Assembly: GCA_022841465.1 (NCBI GenBank)
Contig: JALHRL010000011.1
Location: forward strand, 1 to 64,000
Source of the DNA: Bacteroidia bacterium
GTDB taxonomy: Bacteria > Bacteroidota > Bacteroidia > B-17B0 > Aurantibacillaceae
DNA length: 64,000 nucleotides
Direction of reading: 5' to 3'
Part shown: one piece after another, positions 18,589 through 23,225 of the stretch
How positions within the stretch are numbered: the stretch's first letter is position 1
How the letters are laid out: every line of letters begins with the position of its first letter
Translations under genes and position numbers: made by a program
Notes under the pieces: model-generated
Databases searched by the model: none
Told to the model about the DNA's origin: nothing
What the model saw: the letters and a program-made list of their open reading frames with translations, nothing else

Positions 18589-18624
18589 AAAAAGGCTCTC
18601 AGATTTTGAGAGCCTTTTTATTTT
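18589..18624. terminator. Bidirectional terminator between the cargo gene and hom
   Basis: AAAAAGGCTCTCA and TGAGAGCCTTTTT form a strong stem with T tracts in both directions, placed exactly between two convergent stop codons. Confidence 0.85.
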
Positions 18625-19867
18625 AACTTAAAATTAATTTTTTATTTTCCGCTTTCACATCTTCTCTTATTAAATTTATTTCATCTCCTGCAACTGCAAC
18701 AAATAACTTTTCCGATTTAATTAAATCTTTGTTTTTTATTATTTCGTTTAAATTAATGTTACCAATTACGTAATTATAATCGGTTCCGGAATATTGTTCG
18801 GTAATAGCGTTAAACTTAAACTTCGCTAAACTATCTTTAGTGGTGTATCTTAAATAAACTTTAATTTCAGCATTGTTGGTAAACTTTAAGTTTGGATTTT
18901 GCTTTTGTTTTTTATGTTCGTACTTATAACCATAAGATAAAGCAGAAATATCAGATAAAACAGCTGCCCCGGTAGGATTTCCGCCTGCGCCCCTACCCTG
19001 TAAAAATTGTTCGCCGGAAAACTCACCATCTACAATTACTCCGTTAAATTCATTGTCTACAAAAAACAAATGATTGCTGCTAGCTACAAATTTTGGTAAA
19101 ACAAATATGCTTATCTCATTTTCACTTAAACGCTTAATGGTAGGCACTAATTTAATTTTATAATTTTTTTCGGCCGCATAATTAATATCATTATTACTTA
19201 GGGTAGTAATTCCAATGTTTAAAACTTCATCGGGTTTAGAAATAATTCCGAAAGCGTGCAAAGCAATAATAATGGCTTTAAACTTTGCGTCAAATCCTTC
19301 TACATCATTGGTTGGATCGCTCTCTGCAAATCCTTTTTCCTGTGCCTGTTTTAATGCCGCATCGTACGAAATTTTTTCTGCAATGGTTTTTGTAAGAATG
19401 TAGTTGGTGGTTCCGTTAAAAATGCCACTCACTTTCTCTATTTGTTCATTATCAAAATATTCCTCTAAGGTTCTTATTATGGGTATGCTGCCGCAACTTG
19501 AAGCTTCGTACAATAACGATACGTTATTTTTTAATTGTAAATCATATAACTCTTTTAAATGAGTTGCCACTAGTTTTTTATTGGCGGTTACCACATGTTT
19601 TCCTTTACTTAAGGCATAACTTACAATATTAAACGCTTCATCGGCATCATCAATTAACTCAACAATCACATCAATTTCCGGATTGTCTAATATTTCATAT
19701 TTATCGTAGGTAAATAAACTTTTATCTAAACTTCTTGCTTTTTCTTTATGCTTTACTGCAATTTTTACAATATCTGCTTTAAACCCTTTGCTGTTGCTTA
19801 AAACATGATATAAACCTTGGCCAACACAACCAAAGCCAAACAATCCTATTTTTAATTTCTTAGCCAT
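18623..19867 (-). CDS. hom: Homoserine dehydrogenase
   Basis: The protein has 414 residues and reduces aspartate semialdehyde to homoserine. The NAD(P)-binding motif GLFGFGCVGQG is at residues 8-18; the catalytic-domain hallmarks GIFNGTTNYILT and AESDPTNDVEGFDAKFKA follow. The C-terminus, from about residue 325, is a short extension rather than a clear ACT domain, and no aspartokinase is fused. It is 11 bp downstream of metX and, through it, lies behind the SAM riboswitch leader, so it is tied to methionine rather than threonine demand. Confidence 0.94.
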   Translation of the reverse strand: MAKKLKIGLFGFGCVGQGLYHVLSNSKGFKADIVKIAVKHKEKARSLDKSLFTYDKYEILDNPEIDVIVELIDDADEAFNIVSYALSKGKHVVTANKKLVATHLKELYDLQLKNNVSLLYEASSCGSIPIIRTLEEYFDNEQIEKVSGIFNGTTNYILTKTIAEKISYDAALKQAQEKGFAESDPTNDVEGFDAKFKAIIIALHAFGIISKPDEVLNIGITTLSNNDINYAAEKNYKIKLVPTIKRLSENEISIFVLPKFVASSNHLFFVDNEFNGVIVDGEFSGEQFLQGRGAGGNPTGAAVLSDISALSYGYKYEHKKQKQNPNLKFTNNAEIKVYLRYTTKDSLAKFKFNAITEQYSGTDYNYVIGNINLNEIIKNKDLIKSEKLFVAVAGDEINLIREDVKAENKKLILS

Positions 19868-19878
19868 AATTTTAAATT

Positions 19879-20937
19879 TTACAGAACTTGTAATAAGTTC
19901 TTGGTTACTGATTTTTTTGTTTTTTCGTTATAAAAGTTTGAAATAATTTCTGTTAGTTTTTTTGTTTCAATTAAAAATCCATCGTGCCCATAAAACGAAT
20001 CTATTAATTGAAACTTGGCACCGGGAATATTTTTTGCTAAAAATTCCTGTTCGTGCGGAGGAAACAATAAATCGCTGCTTATTCCAATAACTAAAGTCTT
20101 TGCTTTAATTTTACTTAAAGCTGCCTCTACTGAAACTCTTCCTCTTCCTACATTGTGCGAGTCCATTGCGTTTGACAGCACTACATAAGAATAAGCATTA
20201 AATCGCTTCACCAATTTATCTCCTTGATAACGTTGATAAGAAGCAGAATTATAGTCTCCAATTTTCTCATCGTGCTTTTCAGTTTGCGTTTCGTTATACG
20301 TGTTATAATTGCGATAACTTAACAATGCAATACTTCGTGCCGCAGCCAATCCTTTTTGTCCTCCATCGTATGTATTTCCGTAATACGTTCTGTCGGCTTT
20401 AATCGCTAAACGCTGGCTTTCATTAAAAGCAATTCCCCACGGAGAGTGTTTTGCGTTGCTTGCAATTAAAATGGAGTTTTCAAACAATTCAGGATTTAAA
20501 ATATTCCATTCAACAATTTGCTGCGCGCCTTGCGAACCTCCAATAATTGTATGGATTTTATTTATTCCCAAATACTCACGTAATAAATTATGCGCATTTA
20601 CCATGTCTCTTATGGTAATGGCTGGAAACAAACTATACAAAGGTTGCTTACTGTATTTATTTTCGGTTAATGGGCCGGTGGTACCATAACAAGACCCTAA
20701 ATTATTGGCGCAAATAATAAAATAATCTTTTGGATTGTAAAAATCTTTGGTTCCAAACAAGCCGGGCCACCAATCAAACACATCACTATTTGCGGTTAAT
20801 GCGTGACATACCCAAACAACATTGTTTTTCTCTTTGTTTAACTCGCCATAGGTATGATAGGCAATTTCCAATTCGGGTAACTGTCCGCCATTTTCTAAAG
20901 AAACAGAATAAGGATATTTAAAAGTTTTAATGCTCAT
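19879..20937 (-). CDS. metX: Homoserine O-acetyltransferase
   Basis: This 352-residue alpha/beta hydrolase acylates homoserine with acetyl-CoA, the committed step to methionine. The nucleophile is Ser135 in GGSQGAQQIVEW; the Asp (SSDLLFPP) and the His (GHDGFLIE) complete the triad. YVVLSNAMDSHNVGRGR is the family signature. Acyl preference (acetyl or succinyl) is not proven. The gene is preceded by a 73-codon reading frame, a poly-Cys leader peptide and a SAM-I riboswitch. Confidence 0.94.
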   Translation of the reverse strand: MSIKTFKYPYSVSLENGGQLPELEIAYHTYGELNKEKNNVVWVCHALTANSDVFDWWPGLFGTKDFYNPKDYFIICANNLGSCYGTTGPLTENKYSKQPLYSLFPAITIRDMVNAHNLLREYLGINKIHTIIGGSQGAQQIVEWNILNPELFENSILIASNAKHSPWGIAFNESQRLAIKADRTYYGNTYDGGQKGLAAARSIALLSYRNYNTYNETQTEKHDEKIGDYNSASYQRYQGDKLVKRFNAYSYVVLSNAMDSHNVGRGRVSVEAALSKIKAKTLVIGISSDLLFPPHEQEFLAKNIPGAKFQLIDSFYGHDGFLIETKKLTEIISNFYNEKTKKSVTKNLLQVL

Positions 20938-20942
20938 GATTC

Positions 20943-21164
20943 TTAATTATTACTGTTATAAATTGAATAAATTAAATTTTCCTTTTCGTTGGTAGTTAAA
21001 AGATTGATGTTGCTTACTAATCTTTTGTTTTTTATGTCATTGAATTCAATTGGCAAAGAACCACCTTTATAGGCAAGGCCGTAGTTTGCTTCAAATTGTA
21101 ATACCGAAATAAATTCCTTTGAGTGTATTAAATTTATTTTATTTTGAGTTGATTTATTTTTCAT
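20943..21164 (-). CDS. Small protein of unknown function at the head of the metX operon
   Basis: This 73-residue protein has no signal peptide, membrane segment or Cys, and is rich in Asn, Lys and Leu (NINLLTTNEKENLIYSIY). Its stop codon is 5 bp before the metX ATG, so translation is probably coupled. A perfect 16-bp palindrome lies 14 bp upstream of its ATG. I do not recognise the family. It could be a regulator of the operon or a spacer frame that brings ribosomes to metX. Confidence 0.55.
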   Translation of the reverse strand: MKNKSTQNKINLIHSKEFISVLQFEANYGLAYKGGSLPIEFNDIKNKRLVSNINLLTTNEKENLIYSIYNSNN

Positions 21165-21178
21165 GTTTTCAATTTTTG

Positions 21179-21194
21179 GTCTTTTTAAAAAGAC
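21179..21194. other. Perfect 16-bp palindrome in the metX leader
   Basis: GTCTTTTTAAAAAGAC is fully self-complementary and lies between the poly-Cys reading frame and the 73-codon gene. It could be a protein-binding site or a weak hairpin; it is not a typical GC-rich terminator. Confidence 0.45.
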
Positions 21195-21274
21195 AATTCT
21201 TAAATTATTAATTGCAAAATAATGTAGCGGTTTTTGTGCCGTACATAATTAATCTAAAAAAATAGATGGGATGT

Positions 21275-21397
21275 TTAGCACATACAACAGCAGCAACAAC
21301 ACATGTGCATGCTTTTTTGTGCAAAATGCAAAAATTGAAAATTACCCGTTTGGGTTGCTTTTTTACTGATGTTTTTTTGAATCTGTGTGTTTTCCAT
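21275..21397 (-). CDS. Poly-cysteine/methionine leader peptide of the metX-hom operon
   Basis: A 40-codon reading frame from the ATG at 21397 to the TAA at 21275 ends in MHMCCCCCCMC: six consecutive Cys codons flanked by Met codons, then stop. It begins 34 nt after the SAM-I aptamer and lies ahead of metX. A frame that ends in a run of the amino acids supplied by its own operon is the classic form of an attenuation leader peptide. In mycobacteria, poly-Cys small frames are known cysteine-responsive attenuators. Complementary hexamers GCACAT and ATGTGC bracket the Cys codons, so a stalled ribosome could change RNA folding. No strong intrinsic terminator follows, so the mechanism is open. Confidence 0.75.
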   Translation of the reverse strand: MENTQIQKNISKKATQTGNFQFLHFAQKSMHMCCCCCCMC

Positions 21398-21431
21398 TTT
21401 CTTACTTTTTAATTCATCTTTCCTCTTACTC

Positions 21432-21544
21432 TCAATCAGAGGTAGGAATTAGCACCGGTTTTCCAATACTGACAGTAATCGTCAGCACTTCTAGTTGGTT
21501 GCCTGCGGGTTATAGAGCCTATTCTCTCGCCGCATCTTGATAAA
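21432..21544 (-). promoter_or_regulatory. SAM-I (S-box) riboswitch
   Basis: Read on the minus strand, the conserved core is present: TTTATCAAGA at the P1/P2 junction, a TGCGG/CCGCA P2 stem, GGCAACC after P2, a TGCTGAC/GTCAGTA P3 stem, and the signature GGTGCTAATTCCTAC, closing with GATTGA that pairs back to P1. SAM-I aptamers bind S-adenosylmethionine and switch off methionine genes. No terminator follows directly; the purine-rich GTAAGAGGAAAG just after P1 could be a ribosome-binding site that is masked or exposed, which would make the leader peptide the first target. Confidence 0.92.
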
Positions 21545-21577
21545 TTAAAACACACAAAGGGTGGTTTTAATTCCTGA

Positions 21578-21609
21578 CAAATTTAAGGCTAAAAAACATT
21601 AGCTTCCAA
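21578..21609 (-). promoter_or_regulatory. Promoter of the SAM-riboswitch / metX operon
   Basis: On the minus strand, TTG (21609-21607), 21 bp, and TAAATTTG (21585-21578) match the Bacteroidota promoter. The predicted transcription start is about 30 nt before the riboswitch. Confidence 0.6.
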
Positions 21610-21671
21610 ATTATTTTTAAAATATTTCACTTTTAGCAGTATTTATGGCACTTTTAAGGGCTGTTGGAAAT

Positions 21672-21719: not shown

Positions 21720-22451
21720 TTATTCGCCTTCCATTTGCTTTTTATTCATCTCCTTCATTTCCTTATAAGTCATCATTTTATATCCCTCAGTACTTACGGT
21801 AAATGCTGAGTCTTCTAACTTATCGGTAGTTACTTCCGAAACAGTTTCAATGTACTTTAAATCCATTCCTTGTTGGCTGGTTTGAAACTCAATTTGCATT
21901 GGATATCCAGATATTTCCTTAAAATCAAAATTATTCCCACTCATGCTTCTTTTCTTTGATTTTCCGCCACCAGTAGCTCCTTCCGGTTTCTTAATTTTAT
22001 CGGTATGCCACACACTAATTTTCATTTCAGTTTTATCTTTTCCAATGCCTGATATAGTTACAATGGTTTTTACGCACTCATAACCTGCAACCATTTTTTT
22101 CTCTGAAGTGTTTTCAAATTTTGTTTTTGGCTCTTCTTTTTTTGGTGCATCGTCTTTGGTATTTTCCATTTCTTCCTTTGTTGCCGACCAACCCGACTTG
22201 TTACCCATTGCCTCTGTTATTACAGTCATAACATTACCATCAAAAACTTCTACCGACGACATCATCATACTGGTAGTTTCTGTTTTTGTTTTACTGTCTT
22301 TTATAAATACCGTTTTTTCGCTTTCGGCAAAACCTGCGTACTCTTCAGGTAAACCTTCCATTTTTACGCTGCTTTTAATGGTATAGCAGTTTTGCGACCA
22401 TACAGCAGTAGTTAATAGTAAACCTGCTGATATTAAAAATAATTTTTTCAT
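21720..22451 (-). CDS. DUF4412-type periplasmic protein
   Basis: The protein has 243 residues and a signal peptide (MKKLFLISAGLLLTTAVWSQ). The body has the DUF4412 pattern: an N-terminal VKMEGLPEEYAGF strand, a Met-rich TETTSMMMSSVEV, then a Lys/Glu-rich low-complexity linker (residues about 95-120) before AGYECVKTIVTISG and an isolated W-H-T loop. A LolA-like half-barrel fold is likely. Function is unknown. A TATATTTG box at 22487-22480 upstream may be its -7 element, though the -33 TTG is missing. Confidence 0.75.
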   Translation of the reverse strand: MKKLFLISAGLLLTTAVWSQNCYTIKSSVKMEGLPEEYAGFAESEKTVFIKDSKTKTETTSMMMSSVEVFDGNVMTVITEAMGNKSGWSATKEEMENTKDDAPKKEEPKTKFENTSEKKMVAGYECVKTIVTISGIGKDKTEMKISVWHTDKIKKPEGATGGGKSKKRSMSGNNFDFKEISGYPMQIEFQTSQQGMDLKYIETVSEVTTDKLEDSAFTVSTEGYKMMTYKEMKEMNKKQMEGE

Positions 22452-22544: not shown

Positions 22545-23225
22545 TTATTGAAGGTCGGCAAAAAACTTTGTCATAACCTCTTTACTTACAATGCGCATAT
22601 AGGCAGGTATTTCAAACGAACTTTCAGGTACCTCTGCCTTTTTATAATTTTTAGCTACAAAATGCATTTCCATACCCATTTTTTTTGCTCTGTAATCTAA
22701 AAGAACTCCTTTCACAGATGAATAAGGCGTTAAGGCATTGCAGTTTTCCATTCCTAATTCTTTTGTGTACCATGCATCAAAAGTAACAGAAGGGTTATCC
22801 ACCATGGTAACTTTTAATTTATGTGCCTTAAACTGCAATATTTTCTTTGTTTCTTTTGTTTCCTCAATTTTCAATTTATATCCTTCATTCTCAGCAATAA
22901 TATCTTTTTCTGTTTCAATACAAGCCTGCTTAATATCCATAAATTTAACTGTTTGAGCCATTGTTTTCTCAGTTAAATTTCCAATAATAGAAGTATTAAA
23001 CATTCCCATCGTACTCATTTCCATAACAAACTTATCGTTATTAAATCTTAGTGTTGCACTTCCGGGAGCTAAGCCTGCTAAAGGATAAGTTTGATCTATT
23101 GCTTTGGTATCAAATTCTATAACCCCTTCGTTTGCACCACCTGCTTTTTCGCTACCGCATGAAGCAAAAAACAATAAAGTTGTTGCAACAATTAATTTTT
23201 TAAATATTTGGTAAGAGTGGTTCAA
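22545..23225 (-). CDS. Lipoprotein related in layout to the DUF4412 neighbour
   Basis: The protein has 226 residues and a lipobox, FASCGSE, with Cys23. The only start that preserves the signal peptide is a TTG at 23225. Sequence order resembles the downstream DUF4412 protein: an N-terminal beta strand with small Met-rich segment (FVMEMSTMGMFN), a central KAHKLKVTM strand, then DAWYTKELGM. Both may share a lipid-carrier-like fold. No catalytic motif is visible and the function is unknown. Confidence 0.65.
   Translation of the reverse strand: MNHSYQIFKKLIVATTLLFFASCGSEKAGGANEGVIEFDTKAIDQTYPLAGLAPGSATLRFNNDKFVMEMSTMGMFNTSIIGNLTEKTMAQTVKFMDIKQACIETEKDIIAENEGYKLKIEETKETKKILQFKAHKLKVTMVDNPSVTFDAWYTKELGMENCNALTPYSSVKGVLLDYRAKKMGMEMHFVAKNYKKAEVPESSFEIPAYMRIVSKEVMTKFFADLQ

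Follow-up and report, generated by a model that had tools for sequence, protein, structure and literature searches.

SAM-I riboswitches usually have an intrinsic terminator as their expression platform, although this arrangement is not obligatory. The genes of interest here, metX and metY, take part in the pathway by which sulfide is incorporated into homocysteine. In Actinobacteria, leaders with a run of Cys codons occur upstream of sulfur genes; the accessible text of the source describes them as lacking conserved terminators and suggests the involvement of Rho (PMC1262725). The Bacteroidota leaders examined in this work share with the mycobacterial ones a short open reading frame (ORF), a Cys run near the stop codon, and the lack of a terminator. 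The actinobacterial poly-Cys ORFs are reportedly called leaderless in the title of Canestrari et al. 2020, whereas here the ATG follows a 136-nt aptamer, with a predicted promoter upstream of that aptamer. Further differences are that Met joins the run, that the genes are metX and metY, and that the phylum is another one. In addition, the ORF starts just past a SAM-I aptamer, while the accessible text on the mycobacterial leaders describes no aptamer (PMC1262725).

Two other systems combine a riboswitch with a further element of control. In Mycobacterium tuberculosis, according to the accessible part of PMC11260477, an upstream ORF before ppe2 is controlled by a B12 riboswitch and is coupled through an AUGA overlap and reinitiation. 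The likeness is that a riboswitch acts first on an upstream ORF that is needed downstream; here, the ATG lies within reach of the aptamer, and its translation is predicted. The ppe2 system differs in its ligand, and the same part of that paper describes no amino-acid codon run; in the loci considered here, stop and start codons do not overlap, and the gap between them is at least ~85 nt. The SAM-II riboswitch of Sinorhizobium metA also brings together a SAM aptamer, a methionine gene and more than one level of control, but it belongs to another aptamer class, and the accessible sections of the source describe no sensing codon run (PMC9373788).

Attenuators of the trp/his type have in common with the present leaders a terminal run of codons for the amino acids of the pathway; the present leaders differ in that a terminator is found at only one of 70 loci, in that no antiterminator was found, and in having a riboswitch as second input. 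For Flavobacterium psychrophilum, signs of leader attenuation have been reported at amino-acid operons, with Cys and SAM unnamed in the part of the paper available; the paper also gives TAnnTTTG as the −7 element of the sigma-A consensus (PMC9723704). Finally, SAM-I riboswitches before metH and metB-like genes use the same aptamer family, but have a different 3′ strand in the P1 helix and a terminator where the leader ORF stands here.

The components are therefore of known kinds; their serial combination as a SAM-I platform appears to be unreported in the literature searched. That search covered titles and abstract openings, with subscription papers and preprints mostly outside it, and found no report of a SAM riboswitch joined to a Cys leader; the accessible parts of PMC4833913 and PMC2965389 hold nothing on a design of this kind. 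This article describes such a leader in a 64,000-nt stretch of Bacteroidota DNA (the window) and its relatives in other genomes. The poly-Cys leader after SAM-I is real and conserved, and within the sample studied it is linked to metX/metY. Judged from sequence, it is probably a SAM-gated Cys/Met leader peptide, that is, a two-input sulfur sensor within one mRNA leader.

Architecture of the locus

On the minus strand of the window, a candidate promoter is followed by the SAM-I aptamer, the 40-codon frame, 110 untranslated nucleotides between the leader stop codon and the next ORF, a 73-residue ORF, metX and hom (Table 1). A first-pass annotation, made without database searches, had recognised a SAM-I aptamer followed by a short frame ending in MHMCCCCCCMC-stop. 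Both features are borne out: the aptamer matches RF00162 with 63.0 bits (gathering score 44.4) over its full length of 136 nt (model positions 1–108), and the frame is a 40-codon ORF that opens with ATG. The distance between the two had been given as 34 nt; from the 3′ end of the aptamer to the ATG it is in fact 13 nt. The leader had also been placed ahead of metX-hom, and this order is correct, but the two are not directly adjacent, since the 73-residue ORF intervenes.

Table 1. Features of the leader region and neighbouring genes in the window.
Feature	Position	Strand	Basis or remark
Upstream protein	22545..23225	−	weak GLPGLI-family match, below cut-off
Upstream protein	21720..22451	−	weak GLPGLI-family match, below cut-off
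TTTG, which we take to be the −33 promoter element (candidate)	21607..21610	−	read from sequence; 21 nt before TAAATTTG
Candidate −7 promoter element TAAATTTG	21578..21585	−	fits TAnnTTTG
SAM-I riboswitch aptamer	21411..21546	−	RF00162, 63.0 bits
Leader peptide ORF, ATG start, 40 codons, MENTQIQKNISKKATQTGNFQFLHFAQKSMHMCCCCCCMC-stop	21275..21397	−	ORF translation
Putative Met/Cys sensor tail MHMCCCCCCMC	21278..21310	−	sequence; tail kept in relatives; Cys/Met enrichment
Six Cys codons in a row within the tail	21284..21301	−	sequence
Post-leader untranslated stretch, 110 nt, small hairpins, no intrinsic terminator by the scan rule	21165..21274	−	
Conserved small ORF, 73 aa, first gene past the leader	20943..21164	−	no Pfam or NCBIfam match
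metX, homoserine O-acetyltransferase	19879..20937	−	best NCBIfam match TIGR01392
hom, homoserine dehydrogenase	18623..19867	−	PF00742; NF004976 above cut-off

The match of the metX product to TIGR01392 has an E-value of 1.1e-102 and a score of 343.7 bits, which is under the curated cut-off of 500. Counterparts of the 73-residue ORF, 34–45% identical, occupy the same position in most metX loci of the family to which the window belongs (labelled f1); three f1 loci (L024, L090, L098) have one ahead of metY.

The same genome harbours a second SAM-I match, with 37.6 bits and hence below the gathering score, before a metH gene located by tblastn; there is no Cys leader frame at this site. Five consecutive TGY codons occur at six distinct places in the genome (seven listed matches, two of which overlap in the window), and at the other five places no in-frame ATG precedes the run, with ATG starts only considered. 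No MetY match is found in this genome at E 1e-120, only relatives at 36–42% identity on two contigs.

Conservation and gene specificity of the leader

Conservation was studied in three samples. The f1 family sample comes from RF00162 searches of 41 relatives and, subsequently, of 40 genomes belonging to the window's genus; the SAM-I loci so obtained were scanned. For the class sample, 295 drawn genomes were searched for MetY at E 1e-120; 64 matched, and all 64 loci were taken. Sixty of these were scanned with Rfam, yielding 29 with a SAM-I match, while the remaining four (L122, L123, L124, L126) are f1 loci whose aptamers had already been placed. The named-genome sample is the top 80 of a longer list of metY loci; 60 of these 80 have SAM-I. 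A frame was counted as a Cys leader if its ATG lay −8 to +20 from the aptamer end, if it comprised 8–70 codons, and if at least three Cys were found among the last 12. From the sets used for this rule, for tail composition and P1 class, and for frames with any tail, eight loci with identical 150-nt downstream stretches were removed; near relatives (e.g. L119/L120) were kept.

The rule is passed by 74/114 SAM-I loci before metX or metY, but by 0/68 before metH and 0/5 before metB-like genes, with 1/15 among the others; shuffled post-aptamer DNA passes in 45 of 11,400 cases (0.4%). The Fisher P is 9e-22, a value that ignores kinship and thus overstates independence because the loci are related. 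In the leader loci, the ATG is offset from the aptamer end by −1 to +15 nt (median 9). A short ATG frame at the aptamer end, whatever its tail, is present in 99/114 metX/metY loci versus 9/68 metH loci. A chance ORF without function might also be short and match no known feature, as this one does; the difference between 74/114 and 0/68, the 0.4% of shuffles and the spread over 11 family labels leave that reading with a negligible probability.

Within f1, tblastn identified metX or metY at 23 SAM-I loci. Every one of them has three or more Cys among the final 12 codons, and the frames start 3–14 nt past the aptamer. The N-terminal halves of these leaders vary, while the tail is kept, usually with a final MC; examples are ACCMCCCCCMC, MRMRCCCCMC, MYMCCWCCMC and MYMWCCSMC. 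Cys-rich leaders are found in 53/89 SAM-I metY loci, with L240 and L244 among them doubtful; the class part contributes 19/29 and the named part, drawn from the best 80 of a longer list, 34/60. Those of the class part span 10 family labels besides f1 (11 in all). Tails in named genomes include ...MRMCCCRPCCC in Hymenobacter, ...CICMCCCC in Mucilaginibacter, ...CMCCCIQ in Pedobacter and ...MIMCCCCCCCMQLS in Saprospiraceae. The search for a conserved Cys run and frame downstream of SAM-I, which the first-pass annotation had put forward as a check, shows that both are kept in many Bacteroidota families, before metX/metY and not before metH.

Composition of the tail

In the 74 leaders, Cys accounts for 47.9% of tail residues and 0.9% of those in the body, and Met for 14.9% versus 2.0%; Met is present in 64/74 tails. 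At least six Met plus Cys residues are found in the tail at 65/114 metX/metY loci versus 0/68 metH loci, and four other residue pairs put to the same test gave 0 in every locus set. Sensing of Cys/Met tRNA fits these tails because Met codons are enriched as well. The Cys codons in the 23 f1 tails are almost evenly divided (78 TGT, 75 TGC). Trp (TGG) makes up only 1.1% of tail residues, so the tail is not a UGN repeat; with TGT about as frequent as TGC and TGG rare, decoding of the Cys/Met tail appears to be under selection.

A different view is that what is conserved is the UGY tract as RNA, a hairpin or repeat that serves as a protein target or in folding, and that the frame is incidental. 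In the subgroup of L012, the Cys codons do form a strong hairpin of about −18 kcal/mol, which is also predicted in an 8-sequence consensus. Elsewhere the picture differs. The hairpin that the hexamers GCACAT/ATGTGC had been proposed to form around the Cys codons of the window reaches −7.8 kcal/mol with a z of +0.29, and 122/200 shuffles fold as well or better; in an alignment of 16 sequences from another genus, the Cys-codon helix has no two-sided changes. The low share of Trp beside that of Cys, the enrichment of Met and the narrow range of frame starts likewise argue for the frame rather than the tract, and make an RNA element in the UGY tract highly improbable as the conserved feature.

Two platforms for one aptamer

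Terminators and promoters were counted over 70 distinct leader loci, with the pairs L032/L137, L040/L146, L082/L128 and L117/L165 each counted once. The doubtful leaders L240 and L244 and the two-module loci L201, L211, L220 and L226 were left out of the terminator, skew and promoter counts, and the two doubtful ones also out of the post-leader folding and pairing tests.

Before metH, an intrinsic terminator follows SAM-I in 53/66 distinct loci, and before metB-like genes in 5/5. A terminator lying wholly past the leader stop is found in just 1/70 distinct leader loci (L153), or in 2/70 when the GC limit is lifted (L040 in addition); terminator-like hairpins that start within the leader coding region occur in 9/70, several of them built from Cys codons. 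The P1 helix differs in parallel. Its 3′ strand reads TAAG[TC] in 76% of metH loci versus 3% of the leader class, and TAAATT/TGAATT in 3% versus 69%; the window's strand is AU-rich (GATGAATT), as is usual for the leader class. Loci of this class also have a less stable 8-nt P1 duplex, with a median of −2.6 kcal/mol versus −4.2 for metH. Because both platform and P1 3′ strand differ from those at metH, the metX/metY leader frame occupies the terminator's place. One aptamer family can thus carry two platforms, depending on the gene downstream.

In 60/70 distinct leader loci, the 130 nt preceding the aptamer contain the element TAnnTTTG, always at −85 to −32; of shuffled upstream sequences, 7.9% contain it. 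An internal promoter past the leader was also considered; the element is present in the 110 nt after the stop codon in only 4/70. Because it lies upstream of the aptamer and rarely after the leader, aptamer and leader are probably part of the operon transcript.

It could be argued that the leader is a Cys/Met attenuator and that the aptamer acts on a platform of its own, the two modules being mere neighbours. Four loci have this layout: in L201, L211, L220 and L226, a terminator at +36..+42 belongs to SAM-I itself, and a separate poly-Cys leader lies 310–383 nt downstream, ~110 nt before metY. Two of the four are titled Chitinophagaceae, and the titles of the other two say no more than Bacteroidota or Bacteroidetes. 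Moreover, Cys/Met leaders occur without SAM-I. The main class looks different: a post-leader terminator is confined to one locus, no other aptamer platform is seen, the ATG lies −1 to +15 nt from the aptamer, and the P1 3′ strand is not the TAAG[TC] of terminator-type loci. Separate modules are thus an unlikely description of the main class, for which we favour a leader gated by SAM.

In several families, Cys/Met leaders stand before metY without a SAM-I match. Eight such leaders were picked by hand, and five have a terminator, four of these at 20–26 nt past the stop codon (L131, L133, L136 and L178, with family labels f3, f11 and f20). From their sequences, these four are apparently classic attenuators. 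The SAM-I-less leaders with terminators therefore lend support to the sensing of Cys/Met charging by leaders of this type.

RNA beyond the leader stop codon

From the leader stop codon to the first gene, the distance is 86–390 nt in loci with the gene placed, and 610 nt in L132. Across 74 loci, the first 70 nt past the stop are more strongly structured than shuffled sequences (mean z −1.56). For the window, leader and post-leader RNA together (278 nt) have a z of −1.16, with 27/200 shuffles folding as well or better. In one genus (16 sequences), post-leader hairpins show two-sided changes at 8 pairs (20 cells), and at most 3/500 shuffles score as high on any measure; this alignment had been adjusted to the structure and is biased in its favour.

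The first-pass annotation had further proposed that stalling alters folding through pairing of the Cys codons with RNA downstream. Over 74 loci, such pairing is no stronger than in shuffled sequences (mean z −0.23). The same value applies to a candidate switch in which the Cys codons pair with a post-stop segment that otherwise forms hairpin 1, and which looks plausible by eye in Mucilaginibacter-like loci; it is not supported as a general mechanism. Of the dual-sensing attenuator originally envisaged, the conserved Cys/Met leader remains, and the folding switch finds no support; a post-leader terminator is confined to 1/70 loci.

The output could instead be translational: stalling at the tail would open a structure that otherwise conceals where the first gene begins, and transcription would not end prematurely. 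The post-leader hairpins are conserved, as this would predict, and mycobacterial poly-Cys leaders, too, are described as lacking terminators in the accessible text of PMC1262725. In 48 loci, however, the region around the first gene's start is less paired than the post-leader RNA (unpaired 0.60 versus 0.45); this comparison is confined to loci that have a clear start codon and a gap within the set range. Nor does the Cys tract pair with RNA further on more than it does in shuffles. Masking of the start codon is thus a weak candidate, and a purely translational output is conceivable though rather doubtful. Since the start region is open, premature end of transcription through Rho or an effect on RNA fate is weakly favoured as the more likely output. 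Two signs bear on Rho, the lack of a terminator and a C>G skew of 0.21. The skew is significant versus metH; it is not diagnostic of Rho because it is equal in the eight hand-picked Cys leaders without SAM-I.

Proposed mode of action

The spacing between aptamer and ATG and the class of P1 suggest that SAM gates translation of the leader. Binding of SAM would stabilise the weak, AU-rich P1 helix and thereby cover the initiation region, and the leader would be translated mainly at low SAM. Because P1 is 13 nt away from the ATG in the window, occlusion at this locus would depend on the footprint of the ribosome and not on base pairing of the start codon. The codon content of the tail points to the second step, in which the ribosome would slow or stall at the terminal Cys/Met codons when charging of Cys- or Met-tRNA is low. 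A ribosome held there would keep the following structured RNA permissive, allowing transcription and translation to proceed into metX-hom (or metY). Without a ribosome, the message would be cut short or left unexpressed, most likely because Rho acts on the untranslated RNA past the leader; this is the weakest step of the scheme. High expression would be expected only under a simultaneous shortage of SAM and of charged Cys/Met tRNA. The balance tilts modestly towards a phylum-wide version of this scheme, a serial RNA logic gate before metX/metY in which a SAM sensor decides whether a sensor of tRNA charging is translated.

If this is true, a metabolite aptamer and ribosome stalling are joined in series in a single leader, and the end product (SAM) is read separately from the sulfur supply (Cys/Met charging). 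The phylum is large and has cultured members, with Pedobacter, Mucilaginibacter, Hymenobacter and Pontibacter among the matches listed, and these leaders allow one to ask by what means Bacteroidota might stop transcription prematurely where intrinsic terminators are lacking.

Variations on the design

The Cys rule is missed by 40/114 metX/metY loci; some of these have Met-rich tails, some have frames without a sulfur codon run, and some have no short ATG frame. Among 29 of the metY loci that fail the rule, five have a terminator. Met-rich instead of Cys-rich tails occur at the same position in L263 (Ancylomarina), L244 (Sphingobacterium) and L111/L160, with VMRMQMMMRML and AMSMRMRMHMHLPTC as examples. 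Six loci (L134, L141, L145, L189, L193, L200) combine an ATG frame with a leader-type P1 (TATAAATT; TATAAGTT in L193) and lack a sulfur codon run. At loci of this kind, there may be SAM gating without a codon sensor. Two loci, L174 and L176, match SAM-II with scores close to the gathering score; in both, the match is on the other strand from metY.

The only rule-passing locus among the others is L113 (genome G230), which has SAM-I followed by a leader ending in ...CCCCCCC-stop. The gene after this leader, judged by eye from its sequence, is presumably a CysH-type sulfate-assimilation reductase; the same design is thus seen at what looks like a sulfate-assimilation gene.
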